From assembly GCF_030068605.1 (NCBI RefSeq), contig NZ_JASJOU010000002.1:682001-746000 (forward strand): a stretch of 64,000 nucleotides of DNA, given 5' to 3'. The stretch comes from Xanthocytophaga agilis (GTDB lineage: Bacteria; Bacteroidota; Bacteroidia; Cytophagales; 172606-1). The notes under the pieces are model-generated. The model was not told the DNA's origin, did no database searches, and saw only the letters and a list, made by a program, of their open reading frames with translations. Position 1 is the first letter of the stretch, and the number at the start of each line of letters is the position of its first letter. Both the position numbers and the translations under genes were made by a program. This document shows positions 10,117 through 20,770 of the stretch, piece after piece.

Positions 10117-12912
10117 TTAATAAGACAGCGTGTCTTTTGCAGTTGAAGTTAAATTCTTCAGAGGAGGTGCGAACTTAGTCAGATTGATACCAACAACTGC
10201 CGCTTTGTATTCCTCTATAGTAGGGATTCGTCCAAGGATTGAAGAAAGGACAACTACTGGTGTAGAGGCAAGAAGAGACTCTCCTTTTTTACGATCTGAA
10301 TCTTCTACAACTCTTCCCTGGAAAAGACGAGTCGAGGTTGCCATTACAGTATCTCCTTTTGCTGCTTTTTCCTGGTTACCCATACAAAGATTACAGCCCG
10401 GACGTTCGAGATACATCATATTTTCATATTCGGTACGTGCTGTGTTTTTTGGTGCATTATCATTGAATTCAAAACCAGAATACTTTTGCAATATCTCCCA
10501 ATCTCCCTCAGCCTGAAGTTCATCAATAATGTTGTATGTTGGAGCTGCCACTACAAGCGGTGCATGAAACTCAACTTTACCTTGTTGTTCTTCCAGATTC
10601 TTGAGCATTTGAGAGACAATTTTCAAATCTCCTTTATGCACCATACAAGATCCAACAAAACCTAGATCCACTTTTTTCTCGCCGCTATAGTAAGATAGTG
10701 CACGAATGGTATCGTGAGTATATCGCTTGGAAACGTCGTCATTATTCACATCTGGGTCGGCAATCATTGGTTCAGCAATTGCGTCCAGATCAATTACTAC
10801 TTCCGCATAATATTTGGCATTCGCATCTGGAGTTAAAGCAGGTTTTTCGCCTGATTTAATCTCTGCAATTCTCTTATCTGCTCTGTTGATCAATCCCTGA
10901 AGAACCTGTCTGCTGTTATCCATACCTTTGTCGATCATGATCTGGATTCGGCCTTTTGCAATTTCCAGTGATTGAATCAGCGTGTCATCTTCAGAAATAC
11001 AGATAGAAGCTTTTGCCTTCATCTCTGCTGTCCAGTCTGTGAATGTGAAAGCCTGGTCAGCAGGAAGGGTTCCAATGTGTACTTCAATAACTCTACCTTG
11101 GAAAACGTTCTCCCCGCCAAATTTCTGAAGCATCTGTGCTTGGGTAGCATGTACTACATCACGAAAATCCATATGATCCTTCATTTCGCCTTTGAAGGTT
11201 ACTTTTACAGATTCCGGAATTGGCATGGATGCTTCACCAGTAGCTAGTGCTAACGCAACGGTACCTGAGTCAGCCCCAAAGGCAACCCCTTTCGACATTC
11301 TTGTGTGAGAGTCACCACCAATGATGATGGCCCACTCATCGACTGTGATATCGTTAAGCACCTTGTGAATTACATCCGTCATGGAATGATATTCGCCTTT
11401 CGGATCACGGGCAGTAATCAATCCAAACTCATTCATGAACTTCATAAGCTTTGGAATGTTTGCCTGTGCCTTCTTATCCCATACAGAGGCAGTATGACAA
11501 CCAGATTGATAAGCACCATCTACAATTGGAGAAATCACGGTAGCTGCCATAGACTCGAGTTCCTGAGCGGTCATTAGTCCGGTTGTATCCTGAGAACCTA
11601 CAATATTCACTTCTACACGAACATCCGAACCAGCGTGTAATACTTTACCTGGAGTAATACCAACAGCGTTTTTATTAAATATCTTCTCTACTGCTGTCAG
11701 ACCTTGTCCCTCATTGGAAATCTCTTTTGACGGAGCAAATACAGGAGTTGGTTCTATACCTAAAATTTTTGCAGCAACTGTCTGGATTTTTTTACCAAAT
11801 ACGATGGCATATGATCCACCTGCTCTGATAAACTCTTTTTTCTGAGGCGTAAGTGCCTTAGAGATGTCAATCAGCTCCTTTTCACCATTATATAATTTCT
11901 TTGTCTTCGTATTGATTGTAAGAACAGTACCTGTAGCAACAGAGTATACTTGCTCAAGAATAGGCTCCCCATTTTCATTGCGAATAACTTTGCCATTCTC
12001 ATCTACCTTCTTTACCCAGTTTTTGAGGTCAATACCAATTCCGCCAGTAACATCAACAGTAGTAAGGAAGATAGGAGAAATTCCATTTGTGCCACCTACA
12101 ATAGGGGCAATATTCACAAACGGGACATAGGGACTTGCTTGTTTACCTGTCCATAGCGCCACGTTATTTACACCAGACATTCTGGATGAACCTACACCCA
12201 TAGTGCCTTTCTCAGCGATCAGCATTATACTCTTGTCAGGATGTTGTGCCTGTAATGCTTTGATTTCGGCTTGTGCCTGAGGGGTGATCATGCATTTACC
12301 GTGTAGTTCACGGTCTGAGCGGGAATGCGCCTGGTTACCCGGAGACAGCAGATCGGTTGAGATGTCACCTTCACCAGCAATAAAAGTCACTATATGAATT
12401 TCTTCAGGTACTTCAGGTAACTTTGTAAAGAATTCAGCCTGTGCGTAACTTTCAAGTATCTCTCTAGCTATTGGATTGTCGTTTTTGAATGCTTCTTTCA
12501 AACGATCCGTGTCGGCATCATACAGGAATACCTGTGTTTTAAGGACTTCGGCAGCTTGTTTCGCTATAGTAGTATCATCACCCAAAGCCAGATCCAGCAA
12601 CACTTCAATGGAAGGACCACCTTTCATGTGTCCTAATAATTCAAAAGCAAAAGCAGGTGAAATCTCTTCAACTATGGATGTACCCAGAATAATTTCTTTT
12701 AAGAACTTAGCTTTCACACCTGCCGCACTGGTAGTTCCCGGCAATACATTATAGATAAAAAAGCGGAGAGAATCTTTTCTGTGCGCATTATTGCGATCTT
12801 TTATTTGTGCAATGATCTCACTTAGCAATTCAGCACCATCAATCGGTTTTGGATGAAGATCCTGAACTTTTCTTTCTTCAATTTCTTTTAGGTATTCACT
12901 ATAAATGCTCAT
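10117..12912 (-). CDS. acnB: Bifunctional aconitate hydratase 2 / 2-methylisocitrate dehydratase
   Basis: AcnB interconverts citrate and isocitrate in the TCA cycle using a [4Fe-4S] cluster. It has about 931 residues from the start chosen; E. coli AcnB has 865. Cluster cysteines are seen in GSCMVHKG and PGCNLCMGNQ. The substrate-loop segment GGDSHTRMSKGVAFGADSG and the N-terminal helical repeat region (YLKEIEERKVQDLHPKP) are also present. The frame is open to an ATG at 12957, but the -7 box at 12945-12938 lies inside that extension, so the ATG at 12912 is the likely start. Confidence 0.95.
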   Translation of the reverse strand: MSIYSEYLKEIEERKVQDLHPKPIDGAELLSEIIAQIKDRNNAHRKDSLRFFIYNVLPGTTSAAGVKAKFLKEIILGTSIVEEISPAFAFELLGHMKGGPSIEVLLDLALGDDTTIAKQAAEVLKTQVFLYDADTDRLKEAFKNDNPIAREILESYAQAEFFTKLPEVPEEIHIVTFIAGEGDISTDLLSPGNQAHSRSDRELHGKCMITPQAQAEIKALQAQHPDKSIMLIAEKGTMGVGSSRMSGVNNVALWTGKQASPYVPFVNIAPIVGGTNGISPIFLTTVDVTGGIGIDLKNWVKKVDENGKVIRNENGEPILEQVYSVATGTVLTINTKTKKLYNGEKELIDISKALTPQKKEFIRAGGSYAIVFGKKIQTVAAKILGIEPTPVFAPSKEISNEGQGLTAVEKIFNKNAVGITPGKVLHAGSDVRVEVNIVGSQDTTGLMTAQELESMAATVISPIVDGAYQSGCHTASVWDKKAQANIPKLMKFMNEFGLITARDPKGEYHSMTDVIHKVLNDITVDEWAIIIGGDSHTRMSKGVAFGADSGTVALALATGEASMPIPESVKVTFKGEMKDHMDFRDVVHATQAQMLQKFGGENVFQGRVIEVHIGTLPADQAFTFTDWTAEMKAKASICISEDDTLIQSLEIAKGRIQIMIDKGMDNSRQVLQGLINRADKRIAEIKSGEKPALTPDANAKYYAEVVIDLDAIAEPMIADPDVNNDDVSKRYTHDTIRALSYYSGEKKVDLGFVGSCMVHKGDLKIVSQMLKNLEEQQGKVEFHAPLVVAAPTYNIIDELQAEGDWEILQKYSGFEFNDNAPKNTARTEYENMMYLERPGCNLCMGNQEKAAKGDTVMATSTRLFQGRVVEDSDRKKGESLLASTPVVVLSSILGRIPTIEEYKAAVVGINLTKFAPPLKNLTSTAKDTLSY

Positions 12913-15294: not shown

Positions 15295-15615
15295 ATGAAA
15301 TTAAGCCATTCCTTTAGTGGAGCCCTGCGGACCTTCGCCTATTTTATGGCAAGTGGTACACATTATATGCTGGAAGGCATAGAGTATCTTTCTCTCTATG
15401 GAGAAGAACCCAGTGCTATCGAACAGGCCTTTGCGATTTATGCTAATGTGATTGAGGTAGATGAAAATGGAACAGTTTTAAATGCAAAGTATGCAGAAAA
15501 GAGAGCTACCCAATATATTCGCTCTTATTGTGATTCTGCTTTTGAAGTCGAGCCTCCATTTGAAGACTGGGAACTGGTATTACATGGCCCTCCACCACTA
15601 AAAGATCGTATCTGA
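15295..15615 (+). CDS. Small protein resembling DUF7677 (putative immunity-type)
   Basis: A 106-residue acidic protein opening with LSHSFSGALRTFAYFMASGTH and ending in a proline-rich tail (LHGPPPLKDRI). The opening (F-S-G-A-L-R-x-F-A, then L-x-G-I-E-Y) resembles the DUF7677 proteins, as far as I recall that family; this is a memory-based match. Function unknown. Its placement 8 nt after the SMI1-like gene supports an immunity cassette. Confidence 0.55.
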   Translation: MKLSHSFSGALRTFAYFMASGTHYMLEGIEYLSLYGEEPSAIEQAFAIYANVIEVDENGTVLNAKYAEKRATQYIRSYCDSAFEVEPPFEDWELVLHGPPPLKDRI

Positions 15616-15815
15616 CCCCATAAAAAATAGCAGAACATTTCTTTTAGCACCTTGATTATTTAGCACTAATCCATTGATGTTTCCATGTGTTGATTTATGC
15701 TCATATAGGGCGACTGAACTGAAATACACACAGGGTTAATCGTTGAGTATACTTCATCACAAGCATCAAGCAGAGAAGTTTACTTGGTTTGTTGGAAAAA
15801 AATAATTTTTGCCTA

Positions 15816-15916
15816 GAATTCACCGCAAAAATACAGATGCGTTGAATAAACCGCAGAAATAGCTTTTGCATAGAATAAACCGCAAGATGAATGGTTGATC
15901 GGAATTCACGGCAAAA
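15816..15916 (+). repeat. Four direct repeats GAATnnACCGCAaaa, 28-29 nt apart
   Basis: Copies start at 15816 (GAATTCACCGCAAAA), 15844 (GAATAAACCGCAGAA), 15873 (GAATAAACCGCAAGA) and 15902 (GAATTCACGGCAAAA). Two of them are also preceded by TTTTGCnTA. The spacing is close to 29 nt, not an exact multiple of a helical turn. Confidence 0.75.
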
Positions 15917-16065
15917 GTTTTCATATGAATAATTCAGTCCTAATCTTCAAAGAATGTCTGGATTAATTCGAATCCGTATAATGGTGATATGCCAATCGCT
16001 TCTACATTATTGGATAAATTCAATCTAGTTATAGTTTACACAGTAAATGCCTGATAATAAGGCCG

Positions 16066-16324
16066 GTTACATTAGGTTACACATGGTTACACTTGCGGTT
16101 ACACTTTTAAACTCCTGTAAATGAGGCCGGTTACACTGGTTACACTTATTTCTCACATACGTATATTAATATAGTATATAGTATATATAAAGGGAGTATA
16201 TACTTGCTTTTCTTTCTGGGAACTTTTACAAAAAATGGCAAAACTGTGTAACCAGTGTAACTGCGTTCACTATCAACTAGTTAAAGTGTAACCGCAAGTG
16301 TAACCATGTGTAACCAACTGTAAC
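16066..16324. repeat. Mirrored array of GGTTACAC units (large inverted repeat)
   Basis: The left arm has six GTTACA(C) units starting at about 16066, 16076, 16086, 16098, 16130 and 16139. The right arm has six complementary (G/C)TGTAAC units starting at 16246, 16255, 16286, 16298, 16308 and 16318. The spacings mirror each other (10,10,12,32,9 against 9,31,12,10,10). A 33-nt block, 16075-16107, is perfectly complementary to 16283-16315, and 16130-16145 to 16246-16261. The 100-nt centre is AT-rich (repeated GTATATA). Confidence 0.85.
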
Positions 16325-16516: not shown

Positions 16517-17593
16517 TTATTTCTTTTTCATTCCCTTCACCAACAAGTCCTTCACCAGTGTCTCAACTTCGGATAGTTCTTCAGTAATTTCACCTGATTC
16601 TGAGACTTTTCCAAAGTAATCACAAAGTACACCTGTCTCATAACTTTCCAGAATATGAGGATGTATATAATACTTTTTACATACAGCACGAGTATTACCC
16701 AGCTTTTGAGCTACTTCCTCAATCACCTGAACTACATTCTTTTTTGCTTCAGCAGCTGAGGTAAACTGACCTAATGAACAACAGGTCCTGAAGGCTTGCA
16801 AGGTTCCTGCCCAGGTACGAAAATCTTTTGCAGTGAAGGAATCCTGTGTAATCTCTTTCAGATAATTATTGACATCACTGGAGCCAATGTTTTGTCTTTG
16901 TCCTTTTTCGTCATAATACTGAAACAGTTCGTATCCAGGTATGTCACGACACTGCTTTATTAACTGAGTAAGACGTCGGCTTTGCAAAGCAATTTGATGC
17001 TCTACTCCTTTTTTGCCTTTAAAAGAGAAGGTAGTCTTTGTTCCTTCAATCTTGACATGCCTGTCACGTAAGGTAGTAAGTCCAAAAGAACCATATAGTT
17101 TCCGATACTCATCGTTTCCGATCCGAATATTGGTATATTCCAAAAGCCGTACAATGAGAGCAAGGACTTTACGATAGGTAATACCGGGAGAGGCAAGATC
17201 TTCATTTACCTTTTTCCGGATAGCAGGCAGATGTTCTGCAAACAAGTGAAGGCGATGAAACTTTGTCTCGCTTCGGACTGCATTCCAATCCGGATGATAA
17301 CGATATTGCTTCCGTCCTTTCTGATCAAAGCCTGTAGCCTGCAGGTGTCCATCTGCATCTGGGCAAATCCATACTTTCTCCCAGGCAGGCGGGATCACCA
17401 GACTATGGATACGTTTCAGTGTAGCCTTGTCTTTACAAAGTTTCCCGTTGGGATATATATATTCAAACGACTCACCTTTCAGTCGACGAGTAATACCCGG
17501 AGTTTGATCTGTAGTATATATCAGGCCTGCCCGCTTAGCTGAAACAGTTGGATCTAACAGCAGCTGTTCTGCTTTCTTTGAATGCTTTACCAT
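16517..17593 (-). CDS. DNA topoisomerase IB (poxvirus-type)
   Basis: A 358-residue type IB topoisomerase that relaxes supercoils through a 3'-phosphotyrosyl intermediate. An N-terminal beta domain (about residues 20-115) precedes the catalytic domain. Active-site elements are RIGNDEY at 157-163, TLRDRHVK at 174-181, KDFRTWAGT at 256-264, and the nucleophile in KKYYIHP, most likely Tyr309. The length is typical of bacterial members. It is monocistronic. These enzymes are scattered among bacteria and often transferred; this one borders the repeat-rich region, but a link is only suggested by position. Confidence 0.92.
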   Translation of the reverse strand: MVKHSKKAEQLLLDPTVSAKRAGLIYTTDQTPGITRRLKGESFEYIYPNGKLCKDKATLKRIHSLVIPPAWEKVWICPDADGHLQATGFDQKGRKQYRYHPDWNAVRSETKFHRLHLFAEHLPAIRKKVNEDLASPGITYRKVLALIVRLLEYTNIRIGNDEYRKLYGSFGLTTLRDRHVKIEGTKTTFSFKGKKGVEHQIALQSRRLTQLIKQCRDIPGYELFQYYDEKGQRQNIGSSDVNNYLKEITQDSFTAKDFRTWAGTLQAFRTCCSLGQFTSAAEAKKNVVQVIEEVAQKLGNTRAVCKKYYIHPHILESYETGVLCDYFGKVSESGEITEELSEVETLVKDLLVKGMKKK

Positions 17594-18205: not shown

Positions 18206-20770
18206 ATGCACTTTGAAATTATTCGCACCAACGATGTGTATGTGTTTCAGTTACTGGAGGACAACAATCTGCTAATGGCAGGTAACACTACTTACCAAGA
18301 TCCATCATCCTGTATGGATGCCATTCGTAACTTTATACAGTTAGCCGCTACAGCAGCTAATTATATAACACATACAGAGAGCGGAAACTACCTGTTTGCC
18401 ATACAGACAGGGGATACTGAGATTGCAAGAAGCATACCCTATGATAGTATGGAGAATGTGAATGTAAGTATCAATAGGCTGATTGAGCAACTCTCAACAA
18501 CAAGTGACTATGAAGTAAATGTTATAGAAACCCGGACCCAATCAATCCAGAGGCCAGGCCTTCAGGTAGATCTGGATGCCTATGACTTTACACAGTTATC
18601 CCGATCAGGAAAAGCAGGTTTTGAGGTTTTCCAAAGTGCAAAGAACAATCTGTACTACTTTCATTTCAATAATTCACAGGGGCAACCTATCCTTTATAGT
18701 CAGGCTTATGCCAGCGAAACAACCCGGAATAACGGTATATGGTCTGTGATACAAAATGCAGATAAAGAAAAACGATATGAACGCAAAGAAACCGATACTG
18801 GAGCTTATTTTATTTTAAAAGCTATAAATGGCAGAGAAATAGCCAGAAGTAACTTCTTTACTACTACAACTGAAAGAGATGAAGCTATACAGTCGCTGCA
18901 AAAAACGGTTCAAAGCTTTGCTGATAATTATAGAAAGCCTGAAAAGACAAGTACCCGCAACGGAAATCCTCCTGTAGACAAATATAACTTTACAGTGGTA
19001 TCTCAGTCCGGACAGGCGGGATTTGAAAGTTTCCAATCGGCAGACACCAAACAGTATTACTTTCATTTCAATGATACCGATGGACAGGCCATACTTTACA
19101 GTCAGGGATATGGAAATATAGCAGGACGCGACAACGGCATCCGTTCCGTTATCAAAAATGCCTACCAGGATGCCCGATATGTAAGAAACGAAGAAGAAGG
19201 GAAACATTATTTTATACTGAAAGCAGGCAATAATCAGGAAATTGCCCGGAGTCCATTGTTTGACACAACAGCGGCGATGGAGGCGGCTATCCTCTTTTTA
19301 AAAAATCAGTCTGTCACCTACGCTTCCAGATATCAGGTAGACTTATACACAGAAGAACTTCATACAGTAGAGACTCAACGGCTCAGCCTGCATGTTGACC
19401 ATCCTGAACCTGTGACCAATCTATCAGAGAAGTCCAAACGCACCATTGATCAGTATGACTTTACCCAACGGTCACCTGTGGGCATCAAGGGATTTGAACC
19501 TTTCTATAGTATAAAAAATAACGCCTATTATTTTCACTATAATAACGATCAGGGTACCCCCATCCTGTTCAGCGAATCTTACCCAACAGCTCAAACACGT
19601 GATAACGGACTCGAATCCGTCAAACGAAATGCACCGATAGAATCACGCTGGAGGGTTCAGGAAGAAGACGGACAATACTTTTATAGCCTCAGGTCGGGTA
19701 ATAATCAGGAGATAGCACGTAGTGCGTTCTATAACTCTCGTGAACTTGCTTTAGCTAATCTGGCAGTAATCCAGACTGCAGAATCTGGTATAGAGGTAGA
19801 GGCTCTCCCAATACAGGATAGCACCTATTTGTCTTACAATGGCATAACCAAATCAGAGCCAGTATTGGTTGACCCCATCATGCCCAGAGATATTCCGGCA
19901 CCCAAACCTAAAGTATACCCTCAAACGGAAGCGCTTCCTTTGACTTCAGTAGCATCTACATCGCCACTGACAGAGCCCGCAGTAGCCACTATGGCCTCAC
20001 AGGAAATAACATCTACAGGCCCTTCCGGTTGGGTTATAGGGGGTGTAGTAGCCGCCATACTGATATGTGGTGTTATATGGTATACGAGCTATCAATCCAA
20101 CACTACAGACACTACTCTTTTTGCAGCACAGGCAAATAAAGCAGAACCTGTAGTAAAAGATCCGAAACAAACCTCGGCAACAGTAGCAACCACTATTGAA
20201 AATTTCCAACCTATTGCCTTATATTTCAATAATGATTACCCAAATCCTAAAACAAAGACCAGTACTACGGAACTGACCTATGGCCAAACATATGCCAGCT
20301 ATTATAATCAGAAAGAAGTATTTACAAAGGAATATAGTAAAGGCAGTTCTAATGCAGAAGCCTTCAAACAGGAGGTAGAACAATTCTTTGACTCAAAAGT
20401 AAAAAAAGGCTACAATGACCTTACTGCACTTTCCGACAAATTATTAGCGAAACTTAAAGAAGGAAACAAAGTTGAGATCACAGTCACTGGATTTGCGAGC
20501 CCTCTTGCTGAAGGAGACTATAACAAAATGCTGACAGGCCGCCGGGTCAGCAGCATTGAAAATCATTTCCGAACATATAAAGACGGTCAATTTAAAGAGT
20601 ATATGGATAAGGGGCTGCTTCTGATTACAGAACAAGCCTCAGGTGAGGATAATGCCAGTAGCAACATTAGTGATAACCGGGACGATGTACGAAGTTCGCT
20701 ATATAGTCCTGCTGCCTCTGCAGAGCGCCGTGTAGAAATTACCAATGTAACTATCCAGAAAGCCAACTAA
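18206..20770 (+). CDS. DUF1508-repeat membrane protein with C-terminal OmpA-like domain
   Basis: An 854-residue protein without an N-terminal signal peptide. Three clear double DUF1508 (YegP-type) units lie at about residues 127-236, 262-370 and 410-520. The signature is GFExFxSxxxxxYYFHxNxxxGxPILxSxxY, then NNGIxSVxxNA, then GNNQEIARS. A more diverged copy is at 1-95. A Pro/Thr-rich linker and one membrane helix (GWVIGGVVAAILICGVIWYT, about 613-632) follow. An OmpA-like C-terminal domain (about 665-854) includes VTGFASPLAEGDYNKMLTGR and a C-terminal ERRVEI. The inferred topology is DUF1508 units in the cytoplasm and the OmpA-like domain in the periplasm near peptidoglycan. It is a single gene with a strong terminator. 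Confidence 0.8.
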   Translation: MHFEIIRTNDVYVFQLLEDNNLLMAGNTTYQDPSSCMDAIRNFIQLAATAANYITHTESGNYLFAIQTGDTEIARSIPYDSMENVNVSINRLIEQLSTTSDYEVNVIETRTQSIQRPGLQVDLDAYDFTQLSRSGKAGFEVFQSAKNNLYYFHFNNSQGQPILYSQAYASETTRNNGIWSVIQNADKEKRYERKETDTGAYFILKAINGREIARSNFFTTTTERDEAIQSLQKTVQSFADNYRKPEKTSTRNGNPPVDKYNFTVVSQSGQAGFESFQSADTKQYYFHFNDTDGQAILYSQGYGNIAGRDNGIRSVIKNAYQDARYVRNEEEGKHYFILKAGNNQEIARSPLFDTTAAMEAAILFLKNQSVTYASRYQVDLYTEELHTVETQRLSLHVDHPEPVTNLSEKSKRTIDQYDFTQRSPVGIKGFEPFYSIKNNAYYFHYNNDQGTPILFSESYPTAQTRDNGLESVKRNAPIESRWRVQEEDGQYFYSLRSGNNQEIARSAFYNSRELALANLAVIQTAESGIEVEALPIQDSTYLSYNGITKSEPVLVDPIMPRDIPAPKPKVYPQTEALPLTSVASTSPLTEPAVATMASQEITSTGPSGWVIGGVVAAILICGVIWYTSYQSNTTDTTLFAAQANKAEPVVKDPKQTSATVATTIENFQPIALYFNNDYPNPKTKTSTTELTYGQTYASYYNQKEVFTKEYSKGSSNAEAFKQEVEQFFDSKVKKGYNDLTALSDKLLAKLKEGNKVEITVTGFASPLAEGDYNKMLTGRRVSSIENHFRTYKDGQFKEYMDKGLLLITEQASGEDNASSNISDNRDDVRSSLYSPAASAERRVEITNVTIQKAN

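Follow-up and report, generated by a model that had tools for sequence, protein, structure and literature searches.

A mirrored iteron array of Xanthocytophaga agilis as a probable solo copy of a SaPI/PICI-type replication origin

A mirrored array of twelve short repeats occupies positions 16066–16324 of the window, that is, of the whole 64,000-nucleotide stretch of Xanthocytophaga agilis DNA analysed here (contig NZ_JASJOU010000002.1, positions 682,001 to 746,000). This array is most probably (about 0.8) a solo copy of a SaPI/PICI-type replication origin, and likeliest the remnant of a former replication module. PICI origins are reported always to have an AT-rich region between two sets of iterons and to lie immediately 3′ of rep (PMC6092414), and the C-terminal domain of SaPI Rep to recognise an origin directly downstream of its own gene (PMC7581432). 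The window array possesses the two opposed iteron sets around an AT-rich region. It does not lie 3′ of a rep gene, and so is classed here as a homologue of such an origin rather than as a complete rep-ori; because no VapE gene is found nearby, it is called a solo origin. Its homologue on contig C8 of the same genome does follow a replication gene, and an initiator related to SaPI Rep was found for that homologue only. Of the options offered by the first-pass annotation, the data support two: a replication-type origin and the control region of a lost element. A narrow literature search found no paper on solo PICI-type origins, and searches with the unit sequences returned nothing related, judging by titles and abstracts.

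The architecture is as the first-pass annotation had described it. Each arm carries six GTTACAC-type units, with spacings of 10, 10, 12, 32 and 9 on the left and 9, 31, 12, 10 and 10 on the right; the claimed 33-nt perfectly inverted block is present within 42-nt arms (16066–16107 and 16283–16324) that are 95% complementary, and the AT-rich centre has the length announced. An inner 16-nt perfect inverted pair has exactly 100 nt between its arms. Ten of the twelve units are exact GTTACAC, both outermost units deviating at the last base. GGTTACAC, an 8-mer, is present 11 times in the 64 kb, nine of them inside the array, against an expectation of 1.13 and a maximum of 4 in 100 shuffles. A motif similar to the right spacer, TGATAATCA, occupies a comparable position in origins whose iterons differ. 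As for the supposed “gene desert,” the array is indeed intergenic, but its actual setting is a gap of about 900 bp between two convergent genes (Table 1). Control of the neighbouring genes by the array was rejected, because both of them direct their 3′ ends towards it. Further along the window, a gene at 18206–20770 encodes an 854-aa protein with five DUF1508 stretches.

Table 1. Features of the array and its surroundings (window coordinates).
Feature	Position	Strand
Left arm, six GTTACAC iterons (first GTTACAT)	16066..16145; starts 16066, 16076, 16086, 16098, 16130, 16139	+
Right arm, six inverted GTGTAAC iterons (outermost CTGTAAC)	16246..16324; starts 16246, 16255, 16286, 16298, 16308, 16318	-
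AT-rich centre, 100 nt, 75% A+T; homologous among copies (alignments span the centre)	16146..16245	.
Left 25-nt spacer, CTGTAAATGAGG type; alike among copies, no complementarity to the right spacer	16105..16129	+
Right 24-nt spacer, TTGATAATGA type, in the window copy TTGATAGTGA	16262..16285	-
Outer left motif ending CCTGATAATAAGGCC; common to VapE-linked and several solo copies	16030..16064	+
Second dispersed repeat block, GAATWMACCGC units at 15816, 15844, 15873	15784..15937	+
Left neighbour gene, DUF7677 (context only)	15295..15615	+
Right neighbour gene, DNA topoisomerase IB (context only)	16517..17593	-

The second repeat block is unrelated to the array and also lies near VapE-linked origins; it may be part of the same remnant. 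In the window's own 9.77-Mb genome (G000), its GAATWMACCGC repeat has 94 exact units, spaced about 28 bp apart, versus 3 for the reversed pattern. It recurs at G000 C1:228591-228729, C9:246124-246262 and C29:36171-36395, is mirrored in some places, and is found close to both VapE-linked and solo origins.

The array is one of a dispersed family, which fits the earlier suggestion that it was copied as a unit. By blastn, homologues that include the centre were found in G000 on C9, C14 (two), C1 (two), C8, C23 and C2, together with a decayed copy on C4 that keeps only the centre; weaker rows were interpreted as chance matches or as further pieces of the copies already listed. Eight more copies are present in Xanthocytophaga flavus YF14B1 (G006), a member of the same genus. 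No match was obtained in a third, incomplete genome of the genus, in five genomes of other genera of the family, or among the PLSDB plasmids and INPHARED phages. Of 291 genomes of the order, three contain the 17-mer GGTTACACTGGTTACAC, and all of them are included in this analysis. Four copies (C2b, g71, g72 and g73) have changed in a coordinated way, with GTTACAG units in either arm. Single arms with unrelated spacing, named beforehand as the outcome that would speak against the first-pass interpretation, are absent from the well-preserved copies, though some decayed ones have lost units or an arm.

What gives this family an identity is the company that some of its members keep. The C8 homologue (77% identity, E 3e-37, blastn) starts 34 bp past the stop codon of a VapE gene, whose 731-aa product combines BT4734-like_N (BT4734_N), PriCT_2 and VapE-like domains. 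The operon runs HTH_17, DEAD/ResIII helicase, BT4734-like protein, VapE, array and then a 193-aa protein, which has no Pfam match and matches PHROGs named Holliday junction resolvase and endonuclease. A search for the VapE domain in G000, G006, G007 and the distant genome G254 gave 12 matches, none of them in G007. A mirrored array lies 3′ of VapE in 9/9 full or nearly full loci (G000, G006 and G254), and at each of these, L086 included, none of 200 shuffles equalled it. The tenth match above the cut-off is a fragment on C28, where the array fails the shuffle test at the fragment's own stop codon; the weak matches L090 and L089 gave 3/200 and 0/200. Sister arrays thus do stand 3′ of BT4734/VapE primase-helicase genes, and the link to primase/VirE-like genes that the first-pass annotation had mentioned holds. 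The units beside VapE are of the GTTACAC type at C8:141k, G006 C62, G006 C5 and G254, of the GGGTAAG type at C6, C8:289k, C29 and G006 C61, and AGGTTGA at G006 C60.

Several side observations accompany these loci. L096, in G254, holds two mirrored GTTACAC arrays (1109-1364 and 10218-10474) about 9 kb apart and in inverted relation, one directly following VapE and the other placed past an endolysin gene and before a HigB/HigA-like pair (by eye). At L089 and L090 (G006 C55 and G000 C16), mirrored AGTGA-type units surround a gap of about 270 nt just past the stop of a 479-aa gene with a weak VapE-domain match, in both species; these may represent one more class of origin. Near one of the VapE loci, L092, there is an integrase-like gene.

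The VapE profile matches the solved chain 7pds_A, “Similar to D. nodosus vapE” (E 1.4e-26), which we take to be the SaPI5 protein. The structure model of VapE is poor (mean pLDDT 45), with block means of 68–88 for residues ~641-730, whose predicted order of helices and strands could be that of a winged helix. By eye, the C-termini of four GTTACAC-type Reps (C8, G006 C62, L155 and G254) carry RG followed by F or T, and the GGGTAAG and AGGTTGA Reps of these genomes have HG or YG at that place; that C-terminal residues track the iteron class is suggestive only.

How, then, might such an origin work? In a full module, of which C8 is the example, a helicase comes first, followed by a BT4734-like protein, VapE (the presumed initiator, Rep), the origin and a nuclease-like protein. 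By analogy with the SaPIs, the C-terminal DNA-binding domain of Rep would recognise the iterons, one Rep ring would form per mirrored set, and the intervening AT-rich centre (16146..16245 in the window, a candidate melting region) would be melted for replication to start. Since the rep gene is absent from the window locus, the origin there could act only through a Rep supplied in trans, for instance the C8 VapE or that of an incoming element with the same iterons.

How far this arrangement extends was looked at in a phylum sample of 148 genomes, which holds 17 VapE-domain loci outside G000 (12 loci plus five weak ones in the shuffle test). Four of the 17 (L105, L108, L110 and L119) reach 2/200 shuffles or better and 13 do not. 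None of five VapE loci from named phages or plasmids has a significant 3′ array, the lowest value being 16/200. Outside the genomes examined closely, the mirrored array 3′ of VapE is therefore often lacking. The first-pass annotation had also proposed a motif search for an associated primase gene. An exact iteron-motif scan of IMG/VR returned nine viral contigs, three of which contain a VapE relative (tblastn) followed in each case by the GTTACAC array; two of these, L155 and L160, are near-identical, and L158 holds only part of the VapE gene. Helicase, VapE, array and nuclease succeed each other in L155 and L160 as on C8, with an L155 VapE only 27% identical and an L155 array equalled in 0/200 shuffles. 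The other six contigs show no VapE match in the stretch examined, and a degenerate-pattern scan of IMG/VR checked by VapE alignment confirmed no relative. One contig, L156 (75,955 bases), has a small mirrored GTTACA cluster inside a long ORF, at about 1758-1840.

Copies that stand apart from any VapE gene are the majority in both Xanthocytophaga genomes: 21 solo sites (9 GTTACAC/GTTACAG and 12 GGGTAAG) against 4 VapE-linked ones in G000 (C6, C8:141k, C8:289k and C29), and 17 (6 and 11) against 4 in G006 (C5, C62, C61 and C60). The solo counts come from three origin queries, the window array and two GGGTAAG-class origins, and so cover the GTTACAC/GTTACAG and GGGTAAG classes. They include the C4 relic and the partial copies C1:1078k and G006 C10:4.2k, some solo sites being decayed; neither count includes the copy beside the C28 VapE fragment or the weakly matching VapE loci of C16 and C55, and the pattern pairs at C12:137746, where an ORF overlaps, and at C22:107259 were taken to be chance. 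Among 18 GGGTAAG-class stretches, three (L137, L138 and L146) have six clean units per arm as judged by one fixed pattern, and L140, L142, L143 and L151 are decayed or partial. The spacings of the solo L137, 9, 11, 11, 31, 9 and 10, 31, 11, 11, 9, are close to those of the window array in spite of the different unit.

In X. flavus the window site is occupied by a GTTACAG-type array that is oppositely oriented, its flanks being 95–98% identical, and at the C1a site the species keeps the outer flank around an interior that resembles the window copy (88%). Collinearity with X. flavus is broken within about 100 bp of the arrays at C9, C1b and C4 (L023, L028 and L030), as if arrays marked rearrangement points. 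Among four GGGTAAG solo pairs common to both species, the cores of two are more divergent than their flanks. In the pair C6_292 about 16/275 core positions differ versus 21/1199 in the flanks (p 4e-4), and in C1_1520 about 7/272 versus 10/1200 (p 0.02), these counts being worked back from percent identities. The core of C14_5 is 88.8% identical versus 94.8 and 89.4% for its flanks, and C1_228 shows no such difference (92.9% versus 93.3 and 88.4%). Among the GTTACAC/GTTACAG pairs, whose flanks are mostly 94–98% identical, the core is more divergent in C14a (31/258) and C2b (18/217) but not in C14b (6/257). Divergent cores between similar flanks suggest sequence exchange among copies, with fast mutation as an alternative.

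Did the solo copies descend from full modules? At the window site, none of 12 module proteins gave a tblastn match at E up to 1, and contig C2 has no VapE match, so that descent is judged from other sites. Among 38 solo sites searched with module proteins, three bear accepted module-gene traces: C-terminal pieces of VapE at C1:1078k (E 9e-7) and G006 C4:48.7k (E 2e-4), and at C23 a weak nuclease protein match (E 0.043) together with a match at the nucleotide level in the expected position (best E 5e-9). Other weak matches were set aside: one to the nuclease, 1.7 kb away from the C4 relic (E 0.003, 27.7% over 101 aa), and those with E of 0.43 and 0.97. In X. flavus the C23 array is lost, and DNA resembling part of the nuclease trace is kept. 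The window copy is likeliest the remnant of a phage-type or satellite module, whose noncoding origin would have outlasted its genes and would still be exchanging sequence with other copies.

The other 35 sites, with no accepted trace, leave some room for a different history, in which a unit of about 300 bp containing only the origin spreads by itself through Rep or recombination in trans. The GGGTAAG copies are 84–97% identical to one another and their homology extends no more than a few tens of bases past the outer units (by eye); in the pair C6_292/gC61_206, whose flanks are 98–99% identical, each core is closer to a VapE-linked copy (0.96) than to the other (0.94). Such a cassette is possible though rather unlikely: three solo sites do bear module-gene traces; no transposase occurs among 20 flanking proteins scanned at nine copies, and no target-site duplication was found, the mean at 13 sites with hand-set ends being 4.31 nt for own repeats and 4.68 nt for mismatched pairs. 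A target-duplicating transposon or MITE was rejected on this last comparison. Quite improbable, too, is that the bacterium keeps solo origins of several specificities as decoys that titrate the Rep of an invading or resident element and limit its replication. The excess of solo over VapE-linked sites, their spread over at least three unit types (GTTACAC, GTTACAG and GGGTAAG), and two cases on C14 where different classes stand side by side (111760-111974 with 111988-112240, and 243108-243360 with 243707-243991) would suit such a role. A precedent exists in lambda, where the phage is arrested by ectopic copies of its origin carried on a plasmid (PMC4488673), but those decoys sat on a multicopy plasmid, and at C23 one chromosomal array has been lost in X. 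flavus. Conservation of the units bears on the origin reading as well and speaks both ways. Unit mismatches by alignment column are few in C2w (the window copy), C1a, g66, g71 and g73 (2, 1, 0, 3 and 4), compared with 9, 9 and 10 in the VapE-linked C8, g67 and g69, partly through a misplaced outer unit. Iterons differ much less than the rest in C2w-g66 (2/76 mismatches versus 30/170 in spacers and centre, p 8e-4), C1a-g66 (1/76 versus 63/167, p 2e-11), g71-g73 and C2w-C9 (p 2e-11 to 2e-3 over the four). As none of the four is a simple orthologous pair, the protection may go back to a period spent next to a rep gene. The three orthologous solo pairs C14a, C14b and C2b, from which C1a-g66 was excluded because its interior appears exchanged, show no significant iteron protection (12/228 versus 43/504, p 0.13), and any function of the solo copies is thus hypothetical. 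It is less probable still that the solo origins form a maintained collection of several Rep specificities that is renewed by exchange with circulating VapE elements and serves as an origin-decoy immunity; if they did, this would starve invading elements of their initiator.

Two further readings dispense with replication altogether. The arms could pair as the long stem of a transcript, and the single sequence does fold very stably (-112.5 kcal/mol, z -11), as any mirrored array would. Over all classes, the short spacers are somewhat more complementary within copies (86/184) than between them (1141/2944), but permuting arms within a class abolishes the difference (p 0.16 for GTTACAC and 1.0 for GTTACAG). 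Moreover, the two arms have 24-nt spacers that are unlike in sequence, though each is conserved, no sign of stem-keeping changes was seen between copies, and there is no Rfam match at gathering score; the long-stem RNA of the first-pass annotation is therefore not supported, and is highly improbable. Hardly more plausible is a platform for a host regulator or a chromosome-organising protein. Copies are dispersed in both genomes, mostly intergenic, with units spaced by about one helical turn, but the copies scanned have unrelated flanking genes in unrelated orientations, and homologous copies adjoin VapE genes in phage-like operons.

Several known systems invite comparison. Like the SaPI/PICI rep-ori, the array has two opposed sets of short iterons around an AT-rich region, its sister copies follow a VapE-type primase-helicase, and the unit sequence varies by locus; it differs in lacking a Rep in cis at the window, in its many copies genome-wide and in its Bacteroidota host. 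Flavobacterium phage mumin6-4, Cellulophaga phage phi46:1 and Nonlabens phage P12024L all carry a VapE gene, near which a PF04851 helicase and a VRR-NUC gene are annotated in the first two, but neither of them in the stretch of P12024L examined; unlike C8, none of the three has a mirrored array 3′ of VapE, and their VapE identity is 28–31%. The SCCmec Cch2 site also lies downstream of an initiator helicase and is bound by the C-terminal domain of that helicase, but consists of only three direct iterons without the mirrored twelve-unit layout (PMC7581432). With MITEs and dispersed palindromic repeats the array shares its shortness, inverted arms and many copies; unlike MITEs, it has no detected target duplication and is homologous to an array beside a replication gene.

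An otherwise puzzling repeat array thereby gains an identity. The data indicate that VapE primase-helicases of some Bacteroidota are accompanied by the PICI-type origin layout, the spacing being roughly kept as the unit sequence changes, and that in two genomes origins without a replication gene outnumber those with one by four to five times. Whether as scars, hitch-hikers or decoys, solo origins would in each case affect the interplay of phage, satellite and host chromosome.
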